Below, piece after piece: positions 10,823-37,370 of a DNA stretch of 64,000 nt; position 1 is the stretch's first letter, and each line of letters opens with the position of its first letter. Source of the stretch: Modestobacter excelsi (GTDB lineage Bacteria; Actinomycetota; Actinomycetes; Mycobacteriales; Geodermatophilaceae). The stretch spans positions 1-64,000 of the forward strand of contig NZ_SJEX01000011.1 of NCBI RefSeq assembly GCF_005930495.1, read 5' to 3'. The notes below the pieces were generated by a model. It saw nothing but the letters and a program-made list of their open reading frames with translations. It did not search any database and had not been told where the DNA came from. The position numbers and the translations under genes were made by a program.

Positions 10823-10935
10823 AGGGCCTCCGATTGGCCCACGCGCCCGTCCCAGCCGGCACTGATGGCGAGCAGCTGTTCGACATCTCGTCGTCCGGCG
10901 TCCATCTCGCTGACACCCACCACCTCCTGTCGTGA
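10823..10935 (+). repeat. qor-5' repeat copy A (truncated, degraded)
   Basis: The 3' part of this copy (from ~10864) encodes DGEQLFDISSSGVHLADTHH and then LLS-stop (TGA 10933-10935), matching codons ~27-46 of the intact oxidoreductase at 37238. By hand alignment about 60 of 69 bases agree with copy D. Upstream, the bases between GGCCTCCGA (resembling the -10 area of other copies) and CGCCCGTCCCAGCC are diverged, with the start codon and most of the first 25 codons lost. The tail CTGTCGTGAGAGGCA resembles that of copy E. Same strand as all other copies. Confidence 0.75.
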
Positions 10936-10980
10936 GAGGCAGGTCCACGCCCACCGGTAGAGGGGCGACCGCCGCGGGAC

Positions 10981-12123
10981 TCACCAGGCCCCGATGGTGA
11001 GCCTGGGTCTGTCACTTCGCCCCGCCGCGATGACCGCGTGCAGGCACTCCAGCGGGATGCGAGCGGCCTCCGCCAAGGCGCCGAGTCGGGTCCCGCTCTG
11101 CTCCAGGAGTTCGGCAGCAGCTCCCAGGACGCTGGGGCTCTCCGGTGGTCCGAGCGGTCCCGGTTCGGGGTAACCCCACGCCTTGAGTTGCCGGTTGGCG
11201 CGGCGGTAGGGCAGATCCGGCAGACGCCCGAGCTTGTGCGCCCGGTAGACCAGCGCCTTCAGACTGACACCCCAGTGGCGCTTCAGTGCATGGAACGTCT
11301 CCCAGTCCACACGCGTCGGGAGACAGTCCGCGATCTCGGCCTGCGGCATGAGGAACTCGGCGGCGAACGACATGGCCTGCGACTCGATGACCGTGGACCC
11401 GGCCTCCCTTCCTGCGTGCATCAGCAGGTGCCCGAGTTCATGGGCGGCGTCGAAGCGGCTGCGCGCCTTGTCGTCCTTCAGCGGGGACATGAGCACGAGA
11501 GGGCGGCCTGACGCCGTCTCGGAAGAGGAGAAGGCGTCGACCCGAGGATCAAAGCCCTCGGCCGGCAATCGGACGACGAGCACGCCGTGGGCTTCCAGCA
11601 GGCGGACCACGTGGGGAACGGGTCCGGTGCCGACCGACAGCTCGCGCCTCGCTCTGCGCGCGGCATCGGCGATGTCCGCTTCGGACGGCTGCGGAGGCAG
11701 GCCGATCGGCCGGAGACGCATCGGAGGGAGGTCAACGTACCGCTCGACCAGATCCAGCACCGCCAGCGCCAGTTCCCCGAAGGCAAGGGCCTGCTCGCGC
11801 CGTCTGGCCGGGGTGCTCCGGAGGGAACGGAAGTGCGCGGTCGAGGGAGGCACCTCGGGGATGTCGAGGCCGCGGGAGAAGAACTCCTCCGGCACACCGA
11901 GCGTGAGGCCGAGACGGGTGAGCACCGTCGTGGTCGGGCGGGCCGCTCCGCGCTCGAACTGGGTCACCGCGGCGGGGGTGACCTCGATGCGCCGAGCCAG
12001 TTCCGCCCGCGTCATGCAGGCCAGTCGACGGCCGACCGCCAGGCGGCGGCTGTCGAAAGCCGCCACGGACCCCGAACTGCGGCGCCGCCGCGCGGCGGCG
12101 ACCCGCGGAGGTTGCTCGGTCAT
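10981..12123 (-). CDS. XRE-HTH / ImmA-IrrE metallopeptidase fusion regulator
   Basis: The 380-residue protein has an N-terminal XRE helix-turn-helix (TRAELARRIEVTPAAVTQFE, ~residues 38-57) and a downstream ImmA/IrrE zinc peptidase domain with HELGH at about residues 228-232 and the following SQAMSFAAEFLMP segment, which supplies the third ligand Glu. ImmA/IrrE proteins cleave repressors after a signal; fused to HTH they are found with toxin-antitoxin-like or stress modules. Its start overlaps the end of the upstream unknown gene by 4 nt (ATGA), so the two proteins are made together. No phage genes surround it. Confidence 0.85.
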   Translation of the reverse strand: MTEQPPRVAAARRRRSSGSVAAFDSRRLAVGRRLACMTRAELARRIEVTPAAVTQFERGAARPTTTVLTRLGLTLGVPEEFFSRGLDIPEVPPSTAHFRSLRSTPARRREQALAFGELALAVLDLVERYVDLPPMRLRPIGLPPQPSEADIADAARRARRELSVGTGPVPHVVRLLEAHGVLVVRLPAEGFDPRVDAFSSSETASGRPLVLMSPLKDDKARSRFDAAHELGHLLMHAGREAGSTVIESQAMSFAAEFLMPQAEIADCLPTRVDWETFHALKRHWGVSLKALVYRAHKLGRLPDLPYRRANRQLKAWGYPEPGPLGPPESPSVLGAAAELLEQSGTRLGALAEAARIPLECLHAVIAAGRSDRPRLTIGAW

Positions 12124-12848
12124 CGCGTGGCCTGCTCCGGCCTCCGCTTCAAGGACACGGGCGCCTCGGGGACGTCGCGCTCGGAGAACGCTGGCGTCGC
12201 CGGGCCCCGTGGGACGTCATCCGGAGCCTCGACGGCGGTCATGTCATCGCGCCACAGCGGGGTGACGGCGAGCCATCGTGGTGGGCCCAGGTGCGGCAGG
12301 CCCAGCCAGCCCGCGGTGAGTCCCATGGTGTCCCCGGCCCAGACGAAGAACACGTCCCGCCACACAGGGCACCGCCCCGACCAGGGGATGTCGAAGTCGA
12401 ACGCCAGTTGCCCGTCCATCGGCGGGGGCGGGAGCACGGCGTCGCCAGCGTTCCGGGCGGCGGCGTGACGCGTGGTGCTGGTGTCCCAGACGAAGCGGGC
12501 CCACTCCGGCTCGCGGAGCCGCAGACCCGGTGCCTTGATCACATGCACCGCCAGGTCATCGACGTGGATCAGCAGCGAACCGCGCGGCACGGTCAGGCGT
12601 ACGCCTCGCGCCCGCCACGGGGCCTGAGGCGAGCGGTAGTCGGCCAACATGCGCTCGCGCAGGTTCTCCCATGCCAGACCCGCAACCCCCCGTGGCGTGT
12701 CGAACAGATGGGACGGCTCGTAGCGCTCGGCGTTGGGCCGCCACATCATCCGCGTCGCCTCGCGCAGCCACGCCAGGACTTCGCGTTCCTCCAGGGCCTG
12801 CTTGCACTCGTGCAGAGCTGCCAGCGCGGTCACGTCCCAATCGGGCAC
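12120..12848 (-). CDS. Hypothetical protein, partner of the XRE-ImmA gene
   Basis: I do not recognise this 242-residue protein. It is Trp-rich (for example RPNAERYEPSHLFD, WARFVWDTSTTRH, WSGRCPVWRDVFFVW) and has no signal peptide or membrane helix. The start is GTG 12848; TAATCT (12860-12855 on the minus strand) is 6 nt upstream, pointing to a leaderless transcript. It is first in a two-gene operon with the XRE-ImmA gene and overlaps it by 4 nt. In such pairs the unknown protein is often the effector or the target of the peptidase, which is only an inference here. Confidence 0.7.
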   Translation of the reverse strand: MPDWDVTALAALHECKQALEEREVLAWLREATRMMWRPNAERYEPSHLFDTPRGVAGLAWENLRERMLADYRSPQAPWRARGVRLTVPRGSLLIHVDDLAVHVIKAPGLRLREPEWARFVWDTSTTRHAAARNAGDAVLPPPPMDGQLAFDFDIPWSGRCPVWRDVFFVWAGDTMGLTAGWLGLPHLGPPRWLAVTPLWRDDMTAVEAPDDVPRGPATPAFSERDVPEAPVSLKRRPEQATR

Positions 12849-12854
12849 GATGAA

Positions 12855-12912
12855 AGATTAAGCAGAAATCGCGGAATGCGACAGGGATGAGCAGCTGCGA
12901 TTCCGCATTCCG
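12855..12912 (-). promoter_or_regulatory. Leaderless promoter and inverted repeat upstream of the XRE-ImmA operon
   Basis: On the minus strand TAATCT (12855-12860) is a -10 element 6 nt before the GTG. A 9-bp inverted repeat, CGGAATGCG at 12872-12880 and CGCATTCCG at 12904-12912, flanks it, the nearer arm falling in the -10/-35 spacer. The placement fits an operator for the XRE protein encoded in this operon (autoregulation, inferred). Confidence 0.5.
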
Positions 12913-13109
12913 GCCCGAGGATCAAGCGCGGGTGGCTCCTCGGCAGATCAGGCCGCCGACGACACCTCGGCCTGGAGCGACCCGCCCCTCACCGCAGGTC
13001 GGGTGCGGGTTCGCCTCATTCAGCCGCTCCACCCCGGCGCAGTGCGTCGAGAGGTCGCGGCCGGCGCGGTGGCGGTCGAACACCGCATGCGCTGCTCCCT
13101 GGGCCGAGC

Positions 13110-13445
13110 CTGTGCGCGCCGACAACGCACTGGCCCTCGCCGCGGAGGCCGGCCAGTTCGACCAGTTGCGCCGGGAGCTCTTCGCCACCCAGCCACCCGA
13201 GCACAGTGGCGGTTTCACCGTCGAGGACCTGCTCGTTCTCGGCAGCAGGCCGGCCTCGACGACCCGGCGTCTGCGAGCGGAGTGCGGGAAGCCCGTTACG
13301 AGGCCTGGGTGATCGAGGTCGACCAGCGGTTCCAGGACCAGGATCCGCAGGGGACGCCCGCGGCTTTGCCCGATGGCACGCCCGTCGACTCTGACATCCT
13401 CTACGACGCTCACGCACTGGGAGAGCCACTGCGGGCTGACCGTGG
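13110..13445 (+). pseudogene. DsbA-family (thioredoxin-fold) oxidoreductase remnant
   Basis: Two frames carry one protein: ALAAEAGQFDQLRRELFATQ and PPEHSGGFTVEDLLVLGSR in the first, then after a shift near 13245 AGLDDPASASGVREARYEAW, VIEVDQRFQDQDPQGTPAA and DSDILYDAHALGEPL. This order is the helical insert and C-terminal part of DsbA-like thioredoxin-fold proteins. The N-terminal CxxC region is not recognisable upstream, so the gene is both 5'-truncated and frameshifted. Its end abuts the convergent DHFR-like gene. Confidence 0.65.
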
Positions 13446-13473
13446 CCACCTGAGGTCCCGGTGCACGAGTCGC

Positions 13474-14094
13474 CTACCGCTCCCGGACTGCGTAGGTCAG
13501 GTGCGTCACCCGCTGCGTCGGCTCCGCGCGGACCGGCTCGAGGGCGACACGGCCCGCGTCCACGCCCTCGAACAGGCGGATTCCGGAGCCGAACAGCACG
13601 GGTGAGAGCGCGATCGAGAACTCGTCGACCAGGCCGGCGTTCACGTACTCCAGGATCGTTGCGCCGCCGCCCGCGATGCGGACGTCCCGGTCGCCGGCGG
13701 CATGGCGGGCCTGGTCGAGCGCGGTCTGGATGCCGTCGTCGACGAAGTGGAAGGTGGTCCCGCCGGGTCGCTCCCAGGGGTCACGCTCCTCGTGGGTGAC
13801 GACGAAGACCGGCGTGTGGAACGGCGCCTCCTCCGGCCACATCTGCTCGCCGGCGTCGAACATGCGCTTGCCCATCACGCTCGCCCCGGTGCGCTCGAAC
13901 GTCTCCCGCGCGACGTCGTTGTCGCGCCCTTCCTCGCCACCCCCGCCGAGCTTCAGGTTCTCCCGGAAGAACCGCGTCGGGAAGACCCACCGCTGCAGTT
14001 CCATCCACTGCCGCCCCATCAACTCTCCAAGGGACCCAGGGGCGATGAACCCGTCCAGCGACATCGTCACGCTGAAGAACACCTTCCCGGCCAT
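13474..14094 (-). CDS. Dihydrofolate reductase / RibD C-terminal domain family protein
   Basis: 206 residues with the family start KVFFSVTMSLDGFIAP, GASVMGKRMFDAGEQMWPEE and the nucleotide-binding VRIAGGGATILEYVNAGLVD. Members bind NADPH and resemble DHFR and the reductase half of RibD, but most stand-alone copies have no proven reaction. The start overlaps the stop of the SRPBCC gene, making a three-gene minus-strand operon ArsR-SRPBCC-DHFR-like. The trio is a common actinobacterial set. It is intact. Confidence 0.8.
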   Translation of the reverse strand: MAGKVFFSVTMSLDGFIAPGSLGELMGRQWMELQRWVFPTRFFRENLKLGGGGEEGRDNDVARETFERTGASVMGKRMFDAGEQMWPEEAPFHTPVFVVTHEERDPWERPGGTTFHFVDDGIQTALDQARHAAGDRDVRIAGGGATILEYVNAGLVDEFSIALSPVLFGSGIRLFEGVDAGRVALEPVRAEPTQRVTHLTYAVRER

Positions 14095-14600
14095 CAGCCC
14101 TCAGCTCCTTCCCGAACGGTCTCGGTGACGTAGGCAGCCAGGTGGTCCAGGGTCTGCTGGCCGCCCTGGATCGCGTGGTACTTCTCGACCGCCTCGTCAC
14201 GCGACTCCTTGGTGGGGAACACCGTGCGCATCTCGATTCGGGTCGAGGCGCCGTCGGGCGCGAACGCGAAGACCGACTCGAAGGCGTTCGGGTCGCCGCG
14301 GAACTCACCGTGCAGCAGCGCGATCCGCTCCGGCGGGGCGATCTCGGTCCAGGAGATCCACTCCTGGTAGTCCGTCCCGTCCGGTCCGTGCAGCACGAAG
14401 TCCCACTCGCCGCCGACGCGGAACTCGAAGGACCTCGTGGTGGTGGTGAACCCCTCCGGACCCCACCACCGCGACAGGTGCCGCACCTCGGTGAACGCCT
14501 TGAACACCAGCTCCGGTGGGGCGCTGATGACCCGGGTGATCACGATCTCCCGGTCGGCCGTCGTCGGCTCCGCCCAGTTCTCCTGCCTTGTTCCTGCCAT
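14094..14600 (-). CDS. SRPBCC (AHSA1/START-like) family protein
   Basis: The 168-residue protein carries the AHSA1 pattern: REIVITRVISAPPELVFKAF at the start, LSRWWGPEGFTTTTRSFEFR, GGEWDFVLHGPDGTDY, and a C-terminal amphipathic helix (GGQQTLDHLAAYVTE). These form a hydrophobic ligand pocket; the ligand is unknown. The stop overlaps the DHFR-like start by one base and the ArsR gene ends 3 bp upstream, so the three are one operon. Confidence 0.85.
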   Translation of the reverse strand: MAGTRQENWAEPTTADREIVITRVISAPPELVFKAFTEVRHLSRWWGPEGFTTTTRSFEFRVGGEWDFVLHGPDGTDYQEWISWTEIAPPERIALLHGEFRGDPNAFESVFAFAPDGASTRIEMRTVFPTKESRDEAVEKYHAIQGGQQTLDHLAAYVTETVREGAEG

Positions 14601-14603
14601 CGG

Positions 14604-14945
14604 TCATTCCTCCTGTCGTGTCTGCTCGAGCTCCCGCACGTAGCTGTCCAGCCGGTCGAAGCTCTCGTTCCAGAACCGTTCGAACCCGCCGGTCCACTCG
14701 TGCACCGGCCGCAGCCCGCGGGCGTCCAGGCCGTAGACGCGCTGCTTGCCCGCCTTGCGGTCCCGGACCAACCCGACCTCCCGGAGCACCCGCAGGTGCT
14801 TGGACGCCCCCGGCTGGGTCAGCCCCAGCTCCTGGGCCAGCTCGGTCACCGGCCGGTCACCCGCCCGCAGCAGCGCCAGGATGTCCCGGCGCTGCGGCTC
14901 GGCGATCGCGTTGAAGACGTCCGACGTCGTCGCTGCTCGGGCCAT
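14604..14945 (-). CDS. ArsR-family regulator
   Basis: A 113-residue winged-helix protein: FNAIAEPQRRDILALLRAGD, then PVTELAQELGLTQPGASKHL (recognition helix) and LRVLREVGLVRDRKAGKQRV (wing). It lacks the CxC/CxxC metal-binding signatures of arsenic or cadmium sensors, as is usual for the ArsR members that precede SRPBCC genes. The ATG at 14945 has -10 and -35 elements immediately upstream. It is first in the operon and probably represses it. Confidence 0.9.
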   Translation of the reverse strand: MARAATTSDVFNAIAEPQRRDILALLRAGDRPVTELAQELGLTQPGASKHLRVLREVGLVRDRKAGKQRVYGLDARGLRPVHEWTGGFERFWNESFDRLDSYVRELEQTRQEE

Positions 14946-14951
14946 GGCAGC

Positions 14952-14979
14952 AACATATACCCATATCGGTATGCGTCAA
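14952..14979 (-). promoter_or_regulatory. Promoter and operator of the ArsR-SRPBCC-DHFR-like operon
   Basis: On the minus strand TTGACG (14974-14979) and TATGTT (14952-14957) are separated by 16 bp, with TATGTT only 6 nt before the next gene's ATG. Between them lies the inverted repeat ATACC/GGTAT (14957-14961 and 14968-14972). A dyad inside the spacer is where an ArsR dimer would block RNA polymerase. Confidence 0.65.
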
Positions 14980-15043
14980 GCCTGCAGGAGGCGACGGGCG
15001 ACCGCATGCCGCCGTCATCGGGTGGTCCCCCAGCGTCCCCGTC

Positions 15044-15215
15044 ATGCGCGCCGTGCGGATCACCCGCTTCGGCGGCCCGAGGTCATGGACGTCGTCGACC
15101 CGCCCGACCCCACCCCCGCGAAGGCGAGACCCTGTTTGACATCTCCTCCGCCGGCGTGAACGTCGCCGACACCCACCAGGGGCAGCGGCAGCGGCCTACG
15201 GTCAGCTACTTCTGA
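15044..15215 (+). repeat. qor-5' repeat copy B (frameshifted)
   Basis: The copy begins ATGCGCGCCGTGCGGATCAC and follows the oxidoreductase gene, but one C is missing after CGGCGGCCC and one base near CCCCGCGAAGG, so the frame breaks at codon 12 and translation from the ATG ends at 15140. In the restored frame it reads LFDISSAGVNVADTHQ then GQRQRPTVSYF to TGA at 15213-15215. Unlike copies C, D and E it has THQ (as in the intact gene), not THH, before the divergence point. The upstream -10 is decayed. Confidence 0.8.
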
Positions 15216-15393
15216 CTCGTCCACCGGTCCGCGGGCCACGACTACGAGTCATGCCGACGCGGGCCGAGGAGAGCACGACCTCGGGTGCCTGGCAGCAGGA
15301 AGTGCAGCGCGACCTGGCTGGACCAGCGGCCCCGGAGGCCTTGACGGGCCGGTTGGATGCCGAACTGGCGCGAGCCTGTCGCTGGTCAGGCCC

Positions 15394-15561
15394 TAGCCTC
15401 GGGGCATGCGAGCTGTGCAGATCACCCGCTTCGGCGGCCCCGAGGTCATGGACGTCGTCGACCTGCCCGACCCCACTCCGGGCGACGGCGAGCAGGTCGT
15501 CGACATCTCGTCGTCCGGCGTCAACTTCGCGGACACCCACCACGTCCTGTCGTCCAACTGA
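15394..15561 (+). repeat. qor-5' repeat copy C (intact 51-codon reading frame)
   Basis: TAGCCT at 15394-15399 lies 6 nt before ATG 15406. The frame of 51 codons reads MRAVQITRFGGPEVM, DVVDLPDPTPGDGEQVV, DISSSGVNFADTHH and ends VLSSN-stop at 15561. It matches the first 46 codons of the oxidoreductase at 37238, then departs into the tail CTGTCGTCCAACTGA, shared with copy D. Compared with copy D, 9 codons differ silently and 6 change the residue (hand count). It is only ~180 bp downstream of copy B. Confidence 0.9.
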
Positions 15562-15813
15562 GGTGACGGGTCGGACCCTGCTTGACAGTCCCCCGAACAC
15601 GGAGCCACGGCTTGTCCTGGAGTCGAGCATCGTCCACCCGTCTCGTGCGGGCGCCGAGCGGCGGTCGTGCCGCGGTGACGAGCGATCAGGCAAACCCGCC
15701 GACGCCCAGGGAGACGACACCTCCCCATGACTCCTTCCGGTCGGAAGTGGCAGCCGGGTTCGGCGCCGTCGTGCTCGTGTCCGTCGTCATCGTCCTTCTC
15801 GATCCGGGTCCGG

Positions 15814-17157
15814 TCACTGCTCCGTGCCGGCCATGCGTGGGTCGAGTCCGTACTGGTGGGGGACGCCGAGGTTCTCGCGCAGGGTCGTGCCCGGGTACTC
15901 GGTGGGGTAGATGCCGCGTGCCTGCAGGATCGGCACGACCTCGTCGACGAAGGCGTCGATGCCGTCCTCGTAGATGTCCGGCGTCACCCAGAAGCCGTCG
16001 GCGGCGCCGGCCTCGAACCACTCCTGCAGGTGGTCGGCGTGCAGCTCCCCCGGGCCGACGACCGTGGGATGAAAGTCGATCACGCCATGGGCGAGGACGT
16101 CGCGGGGAGACCACCCCTCGCGCGCCACCGCCAGGGCGTTCGACGAGCGCGGGTCCCTCGGCGAAGCGTGCGCGGAGGCCAGCTGTCCCGGCGTGAGGGG
16201 TTCGTCGAACCGATCCGGGTGGATCTCGATCCCGAGGATCGCGCCGAGGTGGGGCAGGCGGGCCTCGATGACGTCGCCTGCGTACCGCAGGCGACGGTCG
16301 AGGCCCTCGCGCACGGTGGGCGCGACGGTGGTCATGATGCCGGGGATGTACTTGACCTCGTCGGGGTCGCGGCCGGCGTCACGTGCCGCTTTGCGCACGA
16401 GCTCGCGTTGGGCGCGGGCCTCCTCGATCGTCCACACCTCGGCGATGAAGCCGCTGGCATAGCGGCCCGCGATCGACAGCAGGTGCGGACTGGGGCCGCC
16501 GGAGGTGAAGACGACGGGCTGGCCCTGCTCCGACGGGGGGATCGCCAGCGGGCCGCGCGAGGCGACGTACCGGCCCTGCAGGTTGACCGGCTGCAGCTTC
16601 GACGGGTCGATGAACCGGTCCGCCGCCTGGTCCTTGACCCAGGCGTCCTCCTGCCAGCTGCCCCAGAGCGCCTGGACGATCTGGATCGCCTCGTGTGCGC
16701 GCTGGTACCGCTCCTCGCGGTCGGCGACCGGTCGTCCGTAGTTGGCGGCGACGGCGGGGTCGCTGGTCGTGACGGCATTCCAGCCCGCGCGGCCGTGGCT
16801 CAGGACGTCGAGGGCCTTGAACTGGCGCGCGGTGTTGAACGGCTCCTGGAAGGTCGTCGACCCGGTCGCGACGAAGCCGATGTGCGTCGTCTCGCGCGCG
16901 ACGGCGGCCAGCTGGATCAGCGGGTCCATGAGGTTGCTGATCGTCGAGTGCTCGACGTCGCCGCGCACGGCGGGGAAGTCGGGGGTGAAGAGGAAGGTGA
17001 ACTTGCCGCGCTCGGCAGCCTGCGCGTGACGCACGGTGGCGTCGACGTCGGCGTAGGTACCCGGGTCCACGTGCGGGGCGCGCCAGGCGCCGTGCAGGCC
17101 GCCGTACCCGTCGATCATCCCCATCCCGAGGACGAGCTTGTCGTCCCTCATGGTCAC
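15814..17157 (-). CDS. LLM-class FMN-dependent monooxygenase (NtaA/SnaA/DszA family)
   Basis: 447 residues, the usual length for the NtaA/SnaA/DmoA branch of luciferase-like monooxygenases. Seen: FTFLFTPDFPAV, THIGFVATGSTTFQEPFN, ALDVLSHGRAGWNAVTTSDP (the typical flavin-site segment), GRYVASRGPLAIPPSEQGQP and VFTSGGPSP. These enzymes use FMNH2 supplied by a separate reductase to oxidise compounds such as nitrilotriacetate, dimethyl sulfide or pristinamycin-type substrates. It overlaps the MFS gene by 4 nt (ATGA) and is transcribed after it. The substrate is unknown; no flavin reductase gene is beside it. Confidence 0.85.
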   Translation of the reverse strand: MTMRDDKLVLGMGMIDGYGGLHGAWRAPHVDPGTYADVDATVRHAQAAERGKFTFLFTPDFPAVRGDVEHSTISNLMDPLIQLAAVARETTHIGFVATGSTTFQEPFNTARQFKALDVLSHGRAGWNAVTTSDPAVAANYGRPVADREERYQRAHEAIQIVQALWGSWQEDAWVKDQAADRFIDPSKLQPVNLQGRYVASRGPLAIPPSEQGQPVVFTSGGPSPHLLSIAGRYASGFIAEVWTIEEARAQRELVRKAARDAGRDPDEVKYIPGIMTTVAPTVREGLDRRLRYAGDVIEARLPHLGAILGIEIHPDRFDEPLTPGQLASAHASPRDPRSSNALAVAREGWSPRDVLAHGVIDFHPTVVGPGELHADHLQEWFEAGAADGFWVTPDIYEDGIDAFVDEVVPILQARGIYPTEYPGTTLRENLGVPHQYGLDPRMAGTEQ

Positions 17158-18722: not shown

Positions 18723-18903
18723 GTGCGTGCTCGCTGTCTCGTGAGGTCTGGAGAAGTGAGTCGGTGCGACGTGCGCGACTCGTCGGCGCACGGGAGACAG
18801 GTCCGAACCGGACGGGTCGGCACCGGGCATGCGCGATCCCCCGACCGACGGTGGCCGGTGGCGATGCGGCAGGAGCACTCGGTGTCTCGATGACCGGTCC
18901 GGA

Positions 18904-18960
18904 ACGGAGGCAGTCTCCGTTTGCAACTCGAAGATACGGAGACTGTCTCCGGCTTGTCAA
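18904..18960 (-). promoter_or_regulatory. Promoter with two TetR-type operators upstream of the MFS-LLM operon
   Basis: The minus strand has TTGACA (18955-18960) and TATCTT (18931-18936), 18 bp apart. Two dyads are present: CGGAGAC-T-GTCTCCG (18937-18951, perfect 7-bp arms) inside the spacer, and ACGGAGgcagtCTCCGT (18904-18920) downstream. Their centres are 32 bp apart, three helical turns. The dyad type matches operators of TetR repressors of DHA2 pumps. The rest of 18723-19118 (396 bp) holds no gene I can support; the MFS mRNA would have a ~200-nt leader. Confidence 0.75.
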
Positions 18961-19118
18961 CGAGGGTCCGACCGACGTGACGGAGGAGACAAGGACGTCC
19001 CCAAGCGGCTCACGGACAGCGCTGCCCCGCCGCTGGGTGCGGAGCCTCGGCGGGTTGGCCGCGGACCTGCGCTACGCGGCTACGGTCCCGTTGCCACCGA
19101 GCGCTCGCGGGCGTCAGA

Positions 19119-19733: not shown

Positions 19734-19835
19734 CCGACCTCCTCGACGTCAGAACCGGAGGATACGTCCACGTCTCTGAAGGACGGCGGACGCTGCGTCC
19801 GACTCGGGCAGGGACGCCACTCGACTCCCCGAGAG

Positions 19836-19852
19836 GTCCTCCGCTGGAGGAC
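19836..19852 (-). terminator. Small hairpin downstream of the CDF transporter gene
   Basis: GTCCTCC-GCT-GGAGGAC forms a 7-bp stem with a 3-base loop about 100 nt beyond the CDF stop codon (minus strand), before the TetR promoter. No U-tract follows. It may end the ArsR-CDF transcript. Confidence 0.35.
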
Positions 19853-19950
19853 AGGCTGATGACCCAGCGGAGGGGCTCACCCGACGTATGGTCAGTCCCG
19901 TTCGATGGGTGCCGGTTGTCTCGACGCCAGTTGCGCCGGGGTGGCGGCGA

Positions 19951-27698: not shown

Positions 27699-27712
27699 CG
27701 AAAGGACATCAG

Positions 27713-28290: not shown

Positions 28291-28391
28291 TGAGAGGTAC
28301 ATCAGGATCAGGAGCGGCCGGGACCTCCGGACCCTGAGCGCGGCGGCCGCGCGGCCGGTCTCGGTGCGCGTGGTGTGCGCACCGAAGGTGT

Positions 28392-29408: not shown

Positions 29409-29457
29409 GGTCTTCTCCTCTTGGTGAGTCCTGCTCCCCCGACGGCCGTCGGTGAGC

Positions 29458-30549: not shown

Positions 30550-30722
30550 AGTGCTCACGCTCCCGGGGACGTGACGGCGTGCGCGCGCGAAGCCGGGCGG
30601 CCGCGTCGGCCTGTCTCGAGCTCCGGCCGGACGGGGGCCGGCTCGTTGAACTCGGAGGTGTGCATGCTGTGCTTCCTCTTCTGGCCAGGGGTTCCGAGGG
30701 CGTTCGGGCAGGCTCACGAAGA

Positions 30723-30753
30723 GGGCCGCACGGGCACGAGACCCGTGCGGCCC
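30723..30753. terminator. Hairpin between AhpD-like and FAD monooxygenase genes
   Basis: Perfect 12-bp arms GGGCCGCACGGG (30723-30734) and CCCGTGCGGCCC (30742-30753) with a 7-nt loop, 87 bp beyond the AhpD-like stop on the minus strand. It separates transcription of the upstream redox genes from the monooxygenase. The remaining bases of 30550-30839 hold no gene. Confidence 0.7.
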
Positions 30754-30839
30754 CTCAGCGGACGGCGCAGACCCGTCACCATCTCCCTGCCGGTCCGGCG
30801 GGCCTGGCGACTCTGCGCCGTCCTGCTTCGCAGCCGCCG

Positions 30840-31166
30840 CTACTCCGTGAAGACCTTCTTCGCGATCCCCATCGCGGCCATCCCGTAGGGCCAGCCGGCG
30901 TAGAAGGTGGTGTGGGTCAGTGCTTCGATGAGCGCTTTCTGGGTCACGCCGTTCTCGACCGCACGACCGAGGTGGAACTCGAGCTGGGGAAGGTGTCCCC
31001 CGGCGGCGAGCAGCACGACGGTGATGAGGCTGCGGTCGCGGGCCGAGAGCTCGGGGCGGTTCCAGACGTCGTCGAACAGCACGTCGTCAGTGAGCTCGGC
31101 GAGCTTCGGGGCGAAGTCCTCGAACAGGTTGCGTCCGCCGCCGACCTGCTTGGGCTGGTCAGTCAT
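30840..31166 (-). CDS. Carboxymuconolactone decarboxylase / AhpD-like protein
   Basis: 108 residues with the CMD core WNRPELSARDRSLITVVLLA and HTTFYAGWPYGMAAMGIAKK. The CxxC of true AhpD is absent (no Cys at all), so it is of the CMD type rather than a peroxiredoxin partner. GAGGATT precedes ATG 31166. Such small proteins are common in redox islands of this type. Function unknown beyond the fold. Confidence 0.8.
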   Translation of the reverse strand: MTDQPKQVGGGRNLFEDFAPKLAELTDDVLFDDVWNRPELSARDRSLITVVLLAAGGHLPQLEFHLGRAVENGVTQKALIEALTHTTFYAGWPYGMAAMGIAKKVFTE

Positions 31167-31289
31167 GAGAATCCTCTTTCATCAGGTGGGGTTGAGTCGT
31201 GGGTCGGTCTGGGAGATGCGAGGCCGTCCGGGAGGGCGGACCCCGCTGATCGCCGGAGCAGCTGTTCACAGCGCTGCTCCAGCCGGAGG

Positions 31290-32132
31290 TCAGTCGGCGT
31301 CTGTGGACGAGGCGAGCTGCTCCTGCGCCTCGAGCGCGGCGAGGCGATCCTGCAGGGCCTGGTGGGTAGCCCCGTAGGCGTCCGAACCGAGCAGCAGTCG
31401 CAACGGCGCGGGCTCGGCCTCGACGGAGTCGATCATCGCGGCGACCATCTTGCTCGTGTCGCCGAGCGCCTCGACGCCGATCAGTCCACGGAACGCGTGA
31501 GCAGGGTTGCCCTCGTAGGCGGGGAGCTCATCGGCGATCTGCATGCTGCCGCCGAGGAACTCCGTGCGCGCTCCACCGGGCTCGACGATCGTCACACCGA
31601 TGCCGAACGGCGCGACCTCCTGCGACACCGACTCCGCGAACCCTTCGATGCCCCACTTCGTGGCGTGGTACATCGACGAGCCGGGGAAGGTGACCTGCCC
31701 GCCATAGGTGGAGATCTGGATGATCCGTCCCCCGCCCTGTGCACGGAGATGGGGCAGCGCAGCGCGGATCGTCTGGATCGAACCGAACAGGTTGGTGTCG
31801 ATGATGTGCTTGATCTGGTCGTCCGAGAGCTCTTCCGCGGCGCCGAACAGCCCGCAGCCGGCGTTGCTGACGAGGACGTCGATGCGGTCGGTGCCCTCGA
31901 AGGCGCGGTCGACGGTCGCGCGCACGGCGTCGCCGTCGGTGACGTCGAGCAGCTCGACGCGGAAAGCGTCGCCGTACTGCTTCTGCAGGTCCGCGACGGC
32001 TTCCGGCTTGCGAACGGTGCCGACGACGCGGTCACCGCGTCCGAGCAGCTGCTCCGCGAGCTCCCTTCCGAAGCCGCTGGACACCCCGGTGATGAGCCAG
32101 GTGCGCTGCGCGGTAGTGGAATTCGTGGTCAT
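31290..32132 (-). CDS. Short-chain dehydrogenase/reductase
   Basis: 280 residues. TWLITGVSSGFGRELAEQLL (cofactor motif), VSNAGCGLFGAAEELS (NAG), and the active-site pair GGRIIQISTYGGQVTFPGSS with SMYHATKWGIEGFAES (YxxxK). RTEFLGGS follows. NADP-dependent oxidoreductase of unknown substrate, of the SDR type with an extended C-terminus. GGAAGAAG precedes the start at 32132. Confidence 0.85.
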   Translation of the reverse strand: MTTNSTTAQRTWLITGVSSGFGRELAEQLLGRGDRVVGTVRKPEAVADLQKQYGDAFRVELLDVTDGDAVRATVDRAFEGTDRIDVLVSNAGCGLFGAAEELSDDQIKHIIDTNLFGSIQTIRAALPHLRAQGGGRIIQISTYGGQVTFPGSSMYHATKWGIEGFAESVSQEVAPFGIGVTIVEPGGARTEFLGGSMQIADELPAYEGNPAHAFRGLIGVEALGDTSKMVAAMIDSVEAEPAPLRLLLGSDAYGATHQALQDRLAALEAQEQLASSTDAD

Positions 32133-32281
32133 AAACGATCTTCTTCCTGAGTTCGGGGATGGGGCGTCACGCGGAGCTCGTGGCGTCGAATCACGAAGCG
32201 ATGGCGCACGTCGGAGGACGGCACGCGCTCGTAGGCCTCGTTGTGTGGTCGGTGTCCAGCTGCTGCGACCGAGCTGACCTG

Positions 32282-33022
32282 TCAGCGGGTGGTCGGCAGG
32301 GCGACGCCGGTGAGGTCGGCGAGCTGGGAGATCAGCTCGTCCTGGAAGCCCTCGTCCCGGGTCGCCGGGTGGGGTGACTGCTGGCGCATGTGGTGCCAGT
32401 ACCCGCCGGTGACCTTGGTGTCGGGGTCGTCGCCCCCCGCGAGCCAGGCCTGGGTGAGGTGGCCTTCTCGAAGGTCGTCCGACGCACCGGATCCGCCCAT
32501 GCGGGTGGGCACCCAGCCGGGATCCACCGCGTTGCTGTAGACGTCGGGCCAGGTACGGGCGATGAACATCGCGAACGCGGTGACGAACAGCTTCGAGTCC
32601 GAGTACGACTTGGTGGCACGGGTTCCCGACCAGTCCGCGCCGGTCAGATCGGCCCGCCCGCCGCTGTGCATGCCGCTGCTGAGGTACACCAGCCGGTCCG
32701 GGCGCTCGATGAGCGCGGTGAGCAGGTAGGGAGCGACGACGTTCACCGGCAGGATCGCGGCTCCGTTGGCAACGCCGGCGTTGTGGATGATCGCGTCCAT
32801 CCGGCCGATGGCGTTCACCTGCTCGGCGACGCCGCGAACGTCGTCGGTCTGTGCGAGATCCCCGACGACGACGCGGACACCGCGCGCGGTCAGGTCGCTC
32901 AACGCCTCGGCCCGGTGGGGGTTGCGGGCGTGCAGGAGGAGCTCGTGCCCGTCGTCGAGCAGGTCGTGGGCGGTGTTGCGGCCGAGCCCTTCGGTGGAGC
33001 CGGTGATGAAGATGCGAGCCAT
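32282..33022 (-). CDS. Short-chain dehydrogenase/reductase (retinol-dehydrogenase-like)
   Basis: 246 residues. ARIFITGSTEGLGRNTAHDL (cofactor), HNAGVANGAAILPVNVVAPY, RLVYLSSGMHSGG and SYSDSKLFVTAFAMFIAR, where YSDSK is the catalytic YxxxK. DPGWVPTRMGGSGASDDL matches the RDH-like subgroup. AAAGGA precedes ATG 33022, which is used as start. It follows the other SDR gene in the island; the pair may act in sequence but nothing shows it. Confidence 0.85.
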   Translation of the reverse strand: MARIFITGSTEGLGRNTAHDLLDDGHELLLHARNPHRAEALSDLTARGVRVVVGDLAQTDDVRGVAEQVNAIGRMDAIIHNAGVANGAAILPVNVVAPYLLTALIERPDRLVYLSSGMHSGGRADLTGADWSGTRATKSYSDSKLFVTAFAMFIARTWPDVYSNAVDPGWVPTRMGGSGASDDLREGHLTQAWLAGGDDPDTKVTGGYWHHMRQQSPHPATRDEGFQDELISQLADLTGVALPTTR

Positions 33023-33051
33023 GTGATGGTCCTTTCCGATGCCGGGCGGGG

Positions 33052-34272
33052 TTAGTTCTGGTCGGTCAGAGCGCCGCGGCGGGTGCAGACCCAGACGATG
33101 AGCGCGGCGACGATGATCGCCACGGCGGTGATGGTGATGGCGGTCCATCCGCCGGCGGCCCACACCGGTCCAGCGATGGCGGAGCCGATGGCACCGGCGA
33201 GGAAGTTGCTGACGACGATCGCGGTGTTGAGACGGCTGCGGTCCTGGCCGGGCAGGGACAGCAGCCGCGTCTGGTTCAGCACGAGGTTGGACTGCGAGGC
33301 GAGGTCCAGGACGACCACGACGACGAGCAGCGCAATCGTGGACGTCCGGAACAGCCACGACGCCGCGAAGGAGAGGAGGAGGACCCCGAAGGCGATGCCG
33401 GTGGCGGGGACCGACCAACCGCGGTCGTGGAACGTCCCGACGCGTCGGGCACCGAGCGCACCTGCGACGCCTGCGAGACCGAACAACCCGATCTGTCCGA
33501 CCGAGAAGGAGAACGGCGCTGCGGTGAGCAGGTAGGTCAGCGACGTCCAGAACAGCGAGAACACAGCGAACCCGGCGGCCCCGAGGAAGATGGTCGGCGC
33601 GGCGGCACGGTGCCGGGCGACGGTGGTGAACACGGAGCCGAGCAACCGCGTGTACCTGATCGGTTCGCGCTCGGGGAGCTTGGGGATGAGTGCGGAGAGC
33701 ACGAACACCAGGACGATGGCGAGGATCGCGGCGAGCACGTAGACCGCGCGCCAACTGATGAACTGGGCCACCGCACCGCTGAGGGTGCGTGCCAGCAGGG
33801 CGCCGAGCAGGGTGCCGGAGACGATCATGCCCAGCACCTTGCCGCGCTGCCCGGGATCGGCGAGCTCGCTGGCCAACGGTGTGAGGATCTGCGCAGACAC
33901 GGTGGTCAGTCCGACGCCGCCCAGTGCGGCCAGGAGTAGCGAGAAGTTCGGCGCGGCGGCTGCACCGAGCAGGGCGAGGGCGGAGACGCTCAGGATGATC
34001 GGGATGAGGCGCTTGCGGTTGAGGACGTCGCCGAGCGGCACGATGAGGAAGATGCCGAGCGCGTAGCCGATCTGGGTGATGGTGACCAGTGACGCGGCGT
34101 TGGCCGATGAGACGTCCAGCTCGCCGGCGATGGTCTCGATGAGTGGTTGCGCCCAGTAGAGGTTGCCGACGGCAAGGCCGCCGGCGATCGCGAACACGAT
34201 GGTCCGCGTGCGGGTCATGCCACTGATGGCGGAAGTCGTGATGGTCCCCGCTTCGGACTGGGTGGTACTCAC
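33052..34272 (-). CDS. MFS transporter, DHA1 family
   Basis: 406 residues with ~12 hydrophobic segments: NLYWAQPLIETIAGELDVS at the first periplasmic loop, YALGIFLIVPLGDVLNRKRL (motif A), VSAQILTPLASELADPGQRG and WRAVYVLAAILAIVLVFVLS. Drug/sugar-type efflux in the DHA1 branch is likely. It is co-directional with the surrounding redox genes. The start at 34272 is used because its first residues (SGMTRTRTIVFAIAGGLAVG) lead directly into the first helix. Confidence 0.85.
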   Translation of the reverse strand: MSTTQSEAGTITTSAISGMTRTRTIVFAIAGGLAVGNLYWAQPLIETIAGELDVSSANAASLVTITQIGYALGIFLIVPLGDVLNRKRLIPIILSVSALALLGAAAAPNFSLLLAALGGVGLTTVSAQILTPLASELADPGQRGKVLGMIVSGTLLGALLARTLSGAVAQFISWRAVYVLAAILAIVLVFVLSALIPKLPEREPIRYTRLLGSVFTTVARHRAAAPTIFLGAAGFAVFSLFWTSLTYLLTAAPFSFSVGQIGLFGLAGVAGALGARRVGTFHDRGWSVPATGIAFGVLLLSFAASWLFRTSTIALLVVVVVLDLASQSNLVLNQTRLLSLPGQDRSRLNTAIVVSNFLAGAIGSAIAGPVWAAGGWTAITITAVAIIVAALIVWVCTRRGALTDQN

Positions 34273-34296
34273 AGCGGTCCTTTCAGTCAGACGTGG

Positions 34297-34400
34297 TCAG
34301 CCGAGCCAGCCGCCGTCAGCGGCGTAGGCGCCGCCGGTGACGAAGCTGGCTTCGGCGCCGGCCAGGAACAGCACCACGCCGCCGTTGAGCGCCGGATCAT
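34297..34400 (-). pseudogene. SDR C-terminal fragment
   Basis: On the minus strand the bases encode DPALNGGVVLFLAGAEASFV and TGGAYAADGGWLG-stop (TGA at 34299-34297), the end of a classical SDR (FLAGxExxFVTG-x-y-ADGG). Only about 34 codons remain; the preceding part is absent upstream. It sits between the AKR and MFS genes and marks a deletion inside the island. Confidence 0.75.
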
Positions 34401-34458
34401 GGGAGTGGCGGGAGCGGACCGCGGAAGGAATCCGGCCCGCTCAGGGTGTGACGGATGC

Positions 34459-35331
34459 CTAGGCCTCGTCGATGACGAAGCCGAAGGCCTCGACGTCGAG
34501 GGTGTCCAGGTCGATGGTGTCGCCGGTGTCCAAGGCGTCGATCCGCGCCAACTCGTCGTTGGTGAGGTCGAAGTCGAAGACGTCGAAGTTCGCGGCGATG
34601 CGCGCGGCGTTGGTGGACTTGGGGATCGCCGAGCGGCCCTGCTGGATGTGCCAGCGCAGCATGACCTGGGTGTTCGTCTTGCCGTATCGCTCGCCGATGG
34701 CACCGATCGTGGTGTCGTTCAGCGGGTTGGAGGTCGCACCGTTGTAGCTGCGGATCCCACCGATCGGGGACCACGCCTGGGTGAGGATGCCGTGCTCGGT
34801 GTTCTTCGCCTGCAGTTCGGCCTTGACGTTGTACGGGTGCAGTTCGATCTGGTTGACCGCCGGTACGACCTCGGTCTCCGCGAACAGCGCATCCAGGCGG
34901 GCCGGCACCATGTTGCTGACGCCGATGGCGCGGACGGCCCCGTCGGCCAGGAGCTTCTCCAGCGCCTTGTACGCCTGGATCGTGCGCTCGAACTTGGCGG
35001 TCAACGGCTGGTGCAGGAGCAGCAGGTCCAGCTGCTCGACGCCGAGCTTCTTGCGGCTCTTCTCGAACGCGTGCAGCGTCTCGTCGTAGCCGTAGTCGCT
35101 GACCCACACCTTGGTCTCGACGAACACCTCGTCCCGCGGCACCCCGGAGCGGCGCAGGCCCTCGCCGACCTCCCGCTCGTTGAAGTACGCCGCGGCGGTG
35201 TCGATGTGCCGGTAGCCGAGCTCCAGGGCGGTCTGTACGGCCGCGATCGTCTCCTCCGGCGGGGTCTGGAACACGCCCAAACCGATCGCGGGCATGGTGA
35301 CACCGTTGCTGAACGTGACTGTCGAAGTCAT
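34459..35331 (-). CDS. Aldo-keto reductase (2,5-diketo-D-gluconate reductase type)
   Basis: 290 residues. GVTMPAIGLGVFQTPPEET, YRHIDTAAAYFNEREVGEGL (catalytic Asp and Tyr), VFVETKVWVSDYGYDETLH (Lys), LDLLLLHQPL (His) and IPKSTNAARIAANFDVFDF (NADPH). This is the AKR5-type single-domain reductase. Substrates are small carbonyls. It is the next gene after the SnoaL-like gene on the same strand, so part of the TetR-flanked set. Confidence 0.9.
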   Translation of the reverse strand: MTSTVTFSNGVTMPAIGLGVFQTPPEETIAAVQTALELGYRHIDTAAAYFNEREVGEGLRRSGVPRDEVFVETKVWVSDYGYDETLHAFEKSRKKLGVEQLDLLLLHQPLTAKFERTIQAYKALEKLLADGAVRAIGVSNMVPARLDALFAETEVVPAVNQIELHPYNVKAELQAKNTEHGILTQAWSPIGGIRSYNGATSNPLNDTTIGAIGERYGKTNTQVMLRWHIQQGRSAIPKSTNAARIAANFDVFDFDLTNDELARIDALDTGDTIDLDTLDVEAFGFVIDEA

Positions 35332-35463
35332 CTCTCTTCTCTCTGTTCTGGTTGTCGTCGACGAGTGGCTGCGGCAGCGGTTGGTCGCTGCGGGCGGGGT
35401 CGCGCTCTCTCCGACGGGAGGTGTCCGGTCACCACGATCTCGGTGCCGTCGCGGCGCTCTCGC

Positions 35464-35886
35464 TCAGGTGGCCGCTGCCGGTCCAGCCGGGGCGGTCGTG
35501 TGGTGGGCTCGCATGTCACCGACACCGTCGGCGTCGACGATCCGCTTGTGGAAGCGCCACGAGCCCTCGTCGAGTACGAACGTGTCGAGGTACCGCCCCT
35601 GGAAGATCAGCTGCAGCGGGAAGTCCTCGGTCACCTGAATGGAGTCGACGTACGAGACGCTCTGCGCGGTGGCGCCGTCCTCGGCGATGTCGATGATCAG
35701 GTTGCTCACCACGTGCCGAGTGCCAAGCCGGTCACCGTAGACCCGGATGACATCGAGGGCAGCGAGATGCTCGGCCGCGCCTTGGCAGACGACGTCGGGC
35801 GACAACTGCCACCGCGCCTGCTCGAACAGGGTGGCGGCGCCGGCCAGGTCTGCGCCGTAGAGGCGATGGCAGTAGGTGTAGATCAA
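35464..35886 (-). CDS. SnoaL-like / NTF2-fold protein with a lost N-terminal start
   Basis: The visible product IYTYCHRLYGADLAGAATLF, HLAALDVIRVYGDRLGTRHV, VVSNLIIDIAEDGATAQSVS, FVLDEGSWRFHKRIVDAD is a cone-fold SnoaL-like domain. A TTG at 35886 is the only downstream start. An earlier ATG at 35934 opens the same frame (MLTSE) but hits an amber TAG at 35917-35919; the frame then continues DAESAITRLIYTYCHRL, which looks like the normal N-terminus. So it either starts at TTG or is inactivated by a nonsense mutation. Role unknown; such proteins are isomerase- or hydrolase-like pockets. Confidence 0.7.
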   Translation of the reverse strand: MIYTYCHRLYGADLAGAATLFEQARWQLSPDVVCQGAAEHLAALDVIRVYGDRLGTRHVVSNLIIDIAEDGATAQSVSYVDSIQVTEDFPLQLIFQGRYLDTFVLDEGSWRFHKRIVDADGVGDMRAHHTTAPAGPAAAT

Positions 35887-36119
35887 GCGTGTGATCGCCG
35901 ATTCGGCATCGCGCCGCTACTCAGATGTCAGCATGGTTCTCGTTCAGCCTGGGGGCCAGCGCGATTGATTCGAACGCGCTGAGCTCGCTGCATGTCGGGG
36001 CCTACGCAGTCGAGGACGAATGCAGAGAACTCCTGGCGGTGTTCGCCTTGATGCCGGGTCCCCGAGCGTGCGAGCACGTTGCTCGACCCGACGCTCCGGA
36101 GTCCAGGAAGCGGATGCCC

Positions 36120-36155
36120 CGTATCCGAATCCAACGTAACACTGAAACGGATACG
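36120..36155. promoter_or_regulatory. Candidate TetR operator in the SnoaL-TetR divergent region
   Basis: CGTATCCG (36120-36127) and CGGATACG (36148-36155) are perfect 8-bp arms 20 bp apart, in an unusually A/T-rich patch. TACGCT follows 7-8 nt before the TetR GTG at 36184. The site lies between the TetR gene and the minus-strand redox genes, fitting joint control. Confidence 0.6.
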
Positions 36156-36183
36156 TCGCAACCGCTTTGGTACGCTGGGGCAC

Positions 36184-36945
36184 GTGACCGAGCCCAAGAT
36201 GCGGAAGGATGCCGCCCGCAACCGCGCACGGATCTTGGAGGCAGGGCGCGAGGTCTTCGCCCAGCGGGGCCTGGATGCGACCCTGAACGATGTCGCCCAC
36301 CATGCCGGCGTGGGTGTGGGGACCGCGTACCGACGATTCGCGAACAAGGAAGACCTGCTCGACGCGATCCGGTGCCAGCAGGACAACGAGCTCGAGGAGA
36401 TACTGAACGAGTCCCTCGCGATGGATGACCCCTGGGACGCACTCGTCCTTTACCTGGAGAAGTCGCTCGCTCTGCATGTGAGGGATCGTGCGATGGCTGA
36501 GCTCCTCACCGGACGCCGCGTCAGGCCGGAAGCGCACGAGCGGAGCCGCAACCGACTGTCGCCTCTCGTGAACAGAGTCGCCGAGCGTGCACGGGACGCT
36601 GGAGTCATCCGGTCAGACGCCACGGGCACCGATCTGATCTTCCTCCAGATGGCCTGCATCTCCATCAGCACTGTCGTGCAGGACGGACCTGAGATCGAAG
36701 CACGCAGCGATTCCCGGGACCTCTACCGTCGCTACCTGTGGGTCATGCTCGATGGCCTGATACCGCAACGCAGCGACACCGCACCACTGCCCGTGCAAGC
36801 ACTGACGACGGCGGAACTCCACGTACTCCTCAGCGACCCGTCGAGTCCAACAGTGCCCTCGACGACATTACGGCCAGCACCAGGAGCGGGCCCCAGCGAG
36901 GCGGCTTCGGCACCCGCAACTCCGAGCGAGCCGTCCCAAGCCTGA
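36184..36945 (+). CDS. TetR-family regulator
   Basis: 253 residues from GTG 36184. HTH: RARILEAGREVFAQRGLDAT, LNDVAHHAGVGVGTAYRRFA (~residues 12-51), and a helical C-terminal domain, then a Ser/Pro/Ala-rich tail (about the last 45 residues) unusual for the family. It is divergent from the eight-gene minus-strand redox set and is its likely repressor. TACGCT just upstream fits a leaderless promoter. The ligand is unknown. Confidence 0.85.
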   Translation: MTEPKMRKDAARNRARILEAGREVFAQRGLDATLNDVAHHAGVGVGTAYRRFANKEDLLDAIRCQQDNELEEILNESLAMDDPWDALVLYLEKSLALHVRDRAMAELLTGRRVRPEAHERSRNRLSPLVNRVAERARDAGVIRSDATGTDLIFLQMACISISTVVQDGPEIEARSDSRDLYRRYLWVMLDGLIPQRSDTAPLPVQALTTAELHVLLSDPSSPTVPSTTLRPAPGAGPSEAASAPATPSEPSQA

Positions 36946-37224
36946 ACCAGTGAGGGCGAGGGCTCCGGCCCACGAGCAGCGGGAGCTCCAGTCCCCCGGC
37001 GTCGAGCCTCGCCGACGAGCTGCCGCCGACGGAGGCGAGTGCCTGAGAACAACGGCCAGGGGCTGGCTGCCGTCGCCGACTGCCGACGACCACCCGGGCA
37101 ACGACGGCGGGCCTCCCCGCCCCGGTCCCCCGTCGCGGAAGGGTGGGCCTTCGATCCACGGCCCTAAGCGGATCGTGGTCACCACTGACGCACGGCACCG
37201 CCCAGCTGCGCGTGACCGAGGCCA

Positions 37225-37370
37225 TAACCTCACCGTCATGCGTGCTGTGCAGATCACCCGCTTCGGCGGACCCGAGGTCATGGACGTCGTCGACCTGCCC
37301 GACCCGGTCGCCGGGGACGGCGAGCAGCTCTTCGACATTTCCAGCTCGGGCGTCAATTTTGCCGACACCC
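37225..37370 (+). repeat. qor-5' repeat copy F (5' end of the intact oxidoreductase gene)
   Basis: TAACCT (37225-37230) is 7 nt before ATG 37238, and codons 1-46 match copies C, D and E. Codons ~34-41 differ from copy D at five codons without changing a residue (ATT, AGC, TCG, AAT, TTT). After ACCCACCAG the intact gene continues (TEDSYLAPQTLPLIPG), while the other copies leave the alignment at or just after this point. Confidence 0.9.

Follow-up and report, generated by a model that had tools for sequence, protein, structure and literature searches.

The 64,000-nucleotide stretch of Modestobacter excelsi DNA analysed here (positions 1 to 64,000 of contig NZ_SJEX01000011.1, hereafter the window; contig C14 of the 5.26-Mb genome G000 in our handles for genomes, contigs and loci, G, C and L) carries a quinone oxidoreductase gene preceded by an array of truncated copies of its own 5′ end, with accessory genes between them. 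Very probably, the array was built by successive site-specific insertions, and the 5′ end of the gene is an integron-like attachment site used throughout the Geodermatophilaceae, a family with members in soil and rock. An earlier note, drawn up from this DNA sequence alone, had suggested successive insertions at the 5′ end, each restoring the gene, and this suggestion is supported: the cassette boundaries, filled and empty sites, cassettes shared at different positions and exchange of the 5′ segment were all observed. The target gene, its copies and the crossover window are as follows.

37238..38212, + strand: intact quinone oxidoreductase gene (zinc-type dehydrogenase family), 324 aa, the insertion target (profile and Pfam)
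10842..10922, + strand: truncated copy 1, 5′ side decayed, covering profile positions 58-138 (nhmmer E 5e-12; BLAST 76% over 78 bp)
15029..15178, + strand: truncated copy 2, with a frameshift by a 1-base deletion (sequence comparison)
15391..15542, + strand: truncated copy 3, ATG at 15406, open reading frame (ORF) of 51 codons (profile)
21285..21436, + strand: truncated copy 4, ATG at 21300 (profile)
28129..28280, + strand: truncated copy 5, ATG at 28144 (profile)
37368..37374, + strand: crossover window CCCACCA, positions −6 to 0 (mismatches up to −7 on the left, switch at +1 on the right)

As the earlier note had it, all six copies lie on the + strand, the sole intact gene being last and the five truncated copies upstream of it. 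The intact gene (37238-38212) is the sole match of its kind in G000 at E ≤ 1e-60, and the shared sequence ends at 10922, 15178, 15542, 21436 and 28280 in the truncated copies and at 37374 in the intact gene. Identity to the intact 5′ end, 82-93% in four copies and 76% over 78 bp in the decayed copy 1, is far above chance. The copy that had been placed at 10823 is weak, its recognisable part being 10842-10922 only, and the one placed at 15044 (copy 2) has an atypical right side.

Cassette boundaries and the crossover site

The boundaries of the repeat were determined from 60 truncated and 42 intact junctions at 42 loci, one of the truncated junctions (G021 10526) being a weak match. The block of about 150 bp described earlier is real but sharper, beginning with a −10 box about 15 nt before the ATG and ending 138 bp later. 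Its 5′ edge is this −10 box, CCTAGCCT, about 15 nt upstream of the ATG, and nothing is conserved further upstream (43 ATG-bearing truncated junctions and 42 intact ones). To the right of the core, the gene sequence continues in the intact genes (n = 42), and in the truncated junctions (n = 60) positions +1 to +24 are conserved and the sequence is random from +25. This 24-bp element, termed the left end (LE), usually follows the core in truncated copies and is not present in the intact gene; its consensus is close to CCGGCTGTCGTCCAACTGACCTGA, with a second LE type close to CCGGGAGTCGTGAGAGGTACATCAG. Because of the left and right boundaries found, a cassette was defined as LE, cargo, gene start and core, in this order.

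The LE motif (at most one mismatch) occurs 13 times in the 23 genomes of the genus, each time directly after a truncated core. In a second set of loci, LE was found at 15 or more of its 24 positions in 38 of 76 matches scored as truncated, versus 11 of 20,000 random 24-mers; the 76 matches include copies without the core and some loci repeated from the first set, and, as the truncated or intact call was made by open frame alone, some of the "truncated" matches are intact genes that run off the edge of the stretch; at least two matches scored as intact (in L286 and L299) are not the target gene. Both LE types place an in-frame stop codon (+9 to +18 of LE) shortly past the core. An ORF of 49 or 51 codons ending in LE was found at 36 of the 43 truncated junctions with an ATG, and these junctions would, because of the LE stop codons, encode peptides of 49 or 51 residues.

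Where the same cassette left end stands behind different old copies, the paired sequences differ up to −16, −11 and −7, and pairs sharing a right end switch at +1 if one of them is intact and at +2 to +5 if both are truncated. Since left-end pairs differ up to −7 and right-end pairs switch from +1, the crossover maps to the 7-bp CCCACCA (−6 to 0), 46 codons into the gene. The core and LE together form a dyad whose centre, at −0.5, scores highest of 120 centres in truncated junctions (z 3.5; the runner-up has 2.5); the same centre is not among the six best of intact junctions. Consecutive copies differ at −5 in 17 of 60 pairs, which speaks weakly against a long identical overlap, as later mutation can produce the same difference.

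Several further observations concern the gene start itself. Only the first 72-85 bases are kept, without the core, at G001:C85:5666-5749, G004:C275:191116-191182 and L090:15232-15307, the G004 copy being 99% identical over 67 bases; given such core-less copies, a second break point may exist. A G000-wide search also returned a piece at G000:C36:6608-6663 (L006, L310) and three weaker matches. The C36 piece, on another contig and away from the array, is a 56-bp fragment of the gene start (93% identity) without core or LE, and is possibly a moved cassette end. In window positions 37238-37306 and in relatives, third positions of the first 23 codons show unusually high conservation (identity 0.81 in same-residue codons over all pairs, the top of 11 windows, one row, G007, being a paralogue), a sign, perhaps, of leaderless translation or of an accessory site for the recombinase.

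Filled and empty sites, shared cassettes and spread

The earlier note had proposed aligning empty and filled sites, and such an alignment maps the breakpoint: the locus of Klenkia sp. PcliD-1-E (L133) is collinear with that of Klenkia taihuensis (L134) except for an additional 7,597 bp, core to core, so that the L133 insert sits in an L134-like site exactly at the core. Two Geodermatophilus loci (L113 and L114) share a cassette end which leads into non-gene sequence in one member of the pair and into the gene in the other, and so do a Blastococcus (L127) and a Geodermatophilus locus (L109).

Relatives differ in copy number and cargo, which is the kind of variation the earlier note looked for, and the same cassettes are found at different ordinal positions beside different neighbours. 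The window modules stand in another order than their equivalents in the genome of another species, G001 (its modules 3, 10 and 12), and cassette stretches are shared at 93-98% identity in different order or neighbourhood, also across Modestobacter, Geodermatophilus and Blastococcus. One such stretch measures about 1.8 kb, has 93-98% identity among cassettes of these three genera and encodes a DUF429-RelA/SpoT protein, a candidate defence gene product since it matches the PADLOC PDC-S44 model. It was located at L086:11006-12742 and L082:425-2161, with relatives in L090/L089, L094, L097, L109 and L127, and is closer between the three genera than the target gene is.

Exchange of the 5′ segment was also seen in the target gene. 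In 21 close pairs from 19 genomes (3′ part at least 93% identical; pairs not independent), identity was 0.94, 0.88 and 0.83 in three 45-46-base steps to the crossover and 0.963 right after it, and the 5′ part was the less identical one in 18 of the 21. Five close outgroup pairs (seven genes) showed no step, with 0.94 before the crossover position and 0.95 after it.

Among Geodermatophilaceae, the sequence was present in 99 of 112 genomes at E ≤ 1e-12, and at least 58 had two or more matches, a lower bound since scoring was limited to seven candidates per genome. Of 42 loci, 29 have one or more upstream copies (71 upstream copies at E < 1e-3), the record being 12 truncated copies upstream of one gene in G001. 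The spacing of recognised copies has a median of 3.7 kb and ranges from 226 bp to 25.1 kb (71 modules). Fixed positions across relatives, or copies scattered on both strands, had been named as outcomes speaking against insertion; positions are not fixed, and 113 of 114 matches at E < 1e-3 (42 loci, intact genes included) lie on the strand of the gene, with one weak match opposite. The arrays are not an assembly artefact, as they are also present in genomes of one or two contigs such as G003. Three complete or nearly complete Modestobacter genomes (G006, G009, G015) had neither the gene nor copies at the thresholds used. At G045:C1:191636-256530 (L279-L282), copies occupy 65 kb and are separated by gaps of about 23 and 39 kb, far above the usual modules, and at G050:C3:49581-66039 (L286) no copy on the stretch continues beyond the core as the target gene, the intact gene being on G050:C15:89553 (L287), which reflects either an assembly break or a second site.

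Outside the family, among 298 genomes drawn from the order, 69 that belong to other families match the sequence and eight of these have two matches; the second match is on another contig or far off in six of these, and its place is unlisted in G258 and G263. As two candidates per genome were scored there, arrays may exist outside the family. In the outgroup loci L138-L177, flanks of which are often short, no truncated copy was recognised. Second matches in Nitriliruptoraceae (L159, L160, L173, L177) were considered as truncated copies and rejected, being gene-like past the core and resembling paralogues.

The array of the window extends to the left of the coordinates given in the earlier note, as about 8684-10833 matches a cassette of another species at 95.6% identity. 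The modules and LE sites are listed below (HTH, helix-turn-helix).

About 8684..10833, + strand: right part of an older cassette, with abhydrolase_3 and PucR-type HTH genes (95.6% to G001 module 3; Pfam)
10923..10946, + strand: 24-bp LE, identical to the LE after G001 position 48581 (no mismatch)
10923..15178, + strand: module 1, with XRE-ImmA, an RmrT-like gene, RibD_C, AHSA1 and ArsR, and copy 2 at its right end (Pfam, PADLOC)
15179..15542, + strand: module 2, a micro-cassette of 226 bp plus copy 3, left end atypical (sequence comparison)
15543..21436, + strand: module 3, with luciferase-like monooxygenase, MFS, TetR and cation efflux genes and copy 4 (Pfam)
21437..21460, + strand: 24-bp LE, exact LE motif match (motif search)
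21437..28280, + strand: module 4, with GntP permease, LysR, isocitrate/isopropylmalate-type dehydrogenase, glycerate kinase and dioxygenase genes and copy 5 (Pfam)
28281..37374, + strand: module 5, adjoining the intact gene and ending in its present 5′ end (Pfam)

In G001, module 3 sits between two copies. The left 2.0 kb of window module 1 is 95.9% identical to the start of G001 module 12, its ArsR-AHSA1-RibD_C part is about 91% identical to G004 and L112, and window module 3 corresponds end to end to G001 module 10 (96.4% over 5.76 kb). Of the cargo that had been read from the sequence, Pfam confirmed XRE-ImmA, ArsR-AHSA1-RibD_C, luciferase-like monooxygenase (LLM)/MFS/TetR and cation efflux genes, then GntP/LysR/Iso_dh/glycerate kinase, dioxygenase and redox genes; module 5 holds aldo/keto reductases, an FAD oxidoreductase, CMD, short-chain dehydrogenases, MFS, SnoaL and TetR. 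The gene at 12922-13449 in module 1 had no Pfam match, and 15179-15404 (226 bp) holds no predicted gene. At 10981-12848, the XRE-ImmA gene matches PADLOC RmrA (E 4e-146) and its neighbour matches RmrT (E 5e-23).

Of the 262 cassette genes predicted across the arrays, 126 were compared as one set with Pfam, PHROGs and PADLOC; the prediction followed a simple GC-position rule, and some predictions are wrong. Frequent among the 126 proteins were MFS transporters, HTH and TetR regulators, short-chain dehydrogenases and hydrolases, judged from the 25 most frequent of 102 (Pfam), 75 (PHROGs) and 28 (PADLOC) families, behind which rarer matches, integrases included, may be hidden. Of the 262 predicted genes, 162 are oriented against the target gene.

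Proposed mechanism, recombinase and alternatives

We propose that a cassette of about 0.4-25 kb, with LE usually at its left end and the gene start (−10 box, ATG, 46 codons, core) at its right end, would form a circle whose junction reads gene start, core, LE. Site-specific recombination within CCCACCA would join this putative circle to the chromosomal gene start, core and rest of the gene. The old start would be left upstream, cut after the core and, in most ATG-bearing copies, closed by the LE stop codon, and the start carried by the cassette would be fused in frame to the rest of the gene, restoring the promoter region, the N-terminus and the next insertion site. The recombinase would act in trans, as none was recognised in the scanned arrays. 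The likeliest candidate is an integrase, tyrosine or serine, brought by passing helper elements; host Xer is possible, but the site does not support it.

No ORF of the window or of L078-L137 matched a tyrosine-recombinase hidden Markov model (HMM), which was built from 13 G000 recombinases and recovered 65 of 68 known loci (some of them from training; L220, L238 and L250 were missed), nor did any match two serine-recombinase HMMs. On 40 further loci, which are not independent of the first set (23 have a 60-base word in common with it, and several are identical records), the tyrosine and serine HMMs matched only in the control L309, where the tyrosine match came from a genome outside the profile and the serine match was itself in the training set. 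These HMMs were built from few sequences, and a highly divergent recombinase could escape them. The contig of the window had no Phage_integrase match, and the loci scanned had no integrase at the site; no search was aimed at conjugation genes.

Among the recombinases of the host genomes, serine recombinases are absent from 10 of the 23 genus genomes (five of the 10 incomplete) and diverse where present; the genomes lacking them include G008, G016, G018 and G022, the last three of which have arrays. In eight genomes (G000, G006, G008, G009, G015, G016, G018, G022), only XerC/XerD types are universal among tyrosine recombinases, and the non-Xer ones include no family common to the array bearers, save loose groups of decayed or partial members. 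With NCBIfam, of the eight proteins of this type in four genomes, XerD was above the cut-off, and XerC was the best match of the other protein, below the cut-off; the XerC-type locus of G006 had a Pfam match and was missed by the tyrosine profile. A dif site was found once in each of six genomes. The dyad centre at −0.5 and the end of identity at 0 fit a serine-integrase site, but the left half is the same in both sites and no serine recombinase is conserved. A serine integrase would agree with a dyad centred on the last dinucleotide shared, and a tyrosine integrase with a 7-bp overlap.

Several results weigh against insertion by a dedicated recombinase as described. No recombinase was identified for the arrays, and the searches returned no phage, plasmid or viral contig carrying the junction or the gene start as a circular or mobile form, matches to plasmid DNA being partial and mostly to dehydrogenase genes. 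Eleven of the 60 truncated junctions, among them 15178 in the window, fit neither LE type; a fourth left-end pair (G016/G017), whose LE has diverged, differs up to −12; and some copies end before the core (profile 1-85 or 1-78), which the model does not explain. Three of the 21 close pairs lack the dip in the 5′ part. Copies farther from the gene are not more decayed (Spearman −0.04, p 0.76), and an order of insertion with the oldest copy farthest is thus not proven.

Our tentative reading is of an integron-like bank without a resident integrase, in which an ordinary metabolic gene offers its 5′ end as the platform and the recombinase, supplied by the host or by helpers, is not linked to it. 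In such a bank, the price of entry for a cassette would be to supply a functional promoter and N-terminus to the gene that it interrupts. Somewhat doubtfully, each cassette could instead have been an integrative and conjugative element (ICE), an integrative and mobilizable element (IME) or a prophage with its own integrase, the genes of which were later deleted, so that the array consists of remnants like cis-mobilizable elements (CIMEs). Tandem CIMEs and gene-free microCIMEs are known from the accounts given in PMC7563491, module sizes overlap (226 bp to 25 kb, with a 226-bp gene-free module in the window), and some cassette proteins match phage-library transposase families. Against such remnants, no integrase ORF was found in the arrays scanned, though near-identical cassettes occur in different species (96.4% over 5.8 kb, 98.5% over 3.8 kb), and for this reason the cassettes seem to move as integrase-less units.

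It is improbable that host XerC/XerD move the cassettes, as in the pdif modules of Acinetobacter, with the gene core as a degenerate XerC arm. XerC/XerD types being the sole tyrosine recombinases in all eight genomes and the lack of serine recombinases in the array-bearing G016, G018 and G022 (and in G008) would favour Xer, and the gene core TTCGCCGACAC is similar to the stretch on the left side of the dif centre, which we take to be the XerC arm; but the combined fit to both dif arms, 12 of 20, is not significant (p 0.09), 18% of random 59-mers match the XerC arm equally well, the site lacks the inner TAA/TTA of dif, and LE is unlike the XerD arm. Very improbable is an origin without any site-specific recombinase, by duplication and RecA-dependent recombination between the 150-bp repeats. 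The repeats are long enough for homologous recombination, cassette order varies between species and there is no decay gradient, but the exchange points (few pairs) fit one 7-bp window and are not spread through the copy, the 24-bp LE is conserved without a role in homologous recombination, and LE and core form a dyad. That the copies are functional units, as spare leaderless promoters or a peptide of about 50 residues, with incidental cargo, is hardly credible: the ATG is kept in 43 of 60 truncated junctions (36 of the 43 with the 49- or 51-codon ORF) and the −10 box is conserved, but frameshifted and half-deleted copies are common, 162 of the 262 predicted cassette genes point against the direction of the copy, and empty and filled pairs explain the copies as insertion scars.

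With a locus built by such insertions, actinobacteria would have a dedicated and growing site of gene capture, comparable to chromosomal integrons; its target and cassette ends are conserved, and natural cassettes for study are numerous. The question of which recombinase moves integrase-less cassettes becomes testable. Both paired sites (core with gene, core with LE) are defined and short. Each insertion leaves its record in the target gene, whose promoter region and first 46 codons change, and the cassettes provide ready boundaries for mining accessory genes, candidate defence genes included.

Comparison with known systems

Integrons hold recombinase-less cassettes at one platform, each ending in a recombination site, in one orientation and with strain-specific contents. 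The arrays described here are likewise composed of integrase-less cassettes, some of them shared between species, with sites in one orientation. Unlike in integrons, no integron integrase or other recombinase was found at the platform (contig of the window and loci scanned), the cassettes are often multigene, and a coding gene serves as the platform, its 5′ end being exchanged. Single-strand folding of the attC kind was not apparent (mean z −0.7, better strand, 60 junctions), and an integron-like folded strand was rejected: one junction folds well, but its longer context does not, and neither do the 60 junctions in general.

SXT elements carry integrase and rdf (recombination directionality factor) genes. 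Judged by sequence, SXT/R391 elements in prfC and dusA elements resemble the present cassettes in that insertion into the 5′ coding end would supply a new promoter region and N-terminal codons. In the IMEVchUSA3 type, as presented in PMC8409611, the element in the 5′ end of dusA gives a new promoter and a divergent N-terminus and the gene is restored, and the dusA elements treated there carry integrase and rdf genes. Unlike SXT and dusA elements, the arrays here had no recombinase ORF in those scanned, and comprise up to 12 truncated copies in tandem. The analogy with SXT drawn in the earlier note therefore holds for gene repair and does not cover cassettes without an integrase.

CIMEs and microCIMEs, in the descriptions of PMC7563491, are flanked by attachment (att) sites, lack recombination genes and occur in tandem at one gene, with gene-free pieces of 130-220 bp. 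Similarly, the present cassettes are flanked by att-like sites and no recombination genes were found in them. The composites described in the same source consist of two or three elements at gene 3′ ends, together with an ICE, an IME or a mobilizable genomic island (MGI). Unlike these, no such neighbour was seen here, insertion is at the 5′ end and arrays are found across much of the family, a contrast limited by the method set out in PMC7563491, which detects CIMEs only beside an ICE, an IME or a decayed ICE.

The pdif modules of Acinetobacter plasmids, according to the account in PMC6449649, are genes bounded by short recombination sites that have spread between species, and the cassettes here are likewise gene modules with short recombination sites that spread between species. 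Unlike pdif modules, their sites are not dif-like (p 0.09, both arms), and the array is chromosomal, at one gene and in one orientation. Among the publications listed in literature searches, which comprised neither subscription papers nor preprints, none pointed to this locus. The SXT and dusA islands are a precedent for the repair of the target gene, and tandem CIMEs together with integron cassettes are a precedent for the array.

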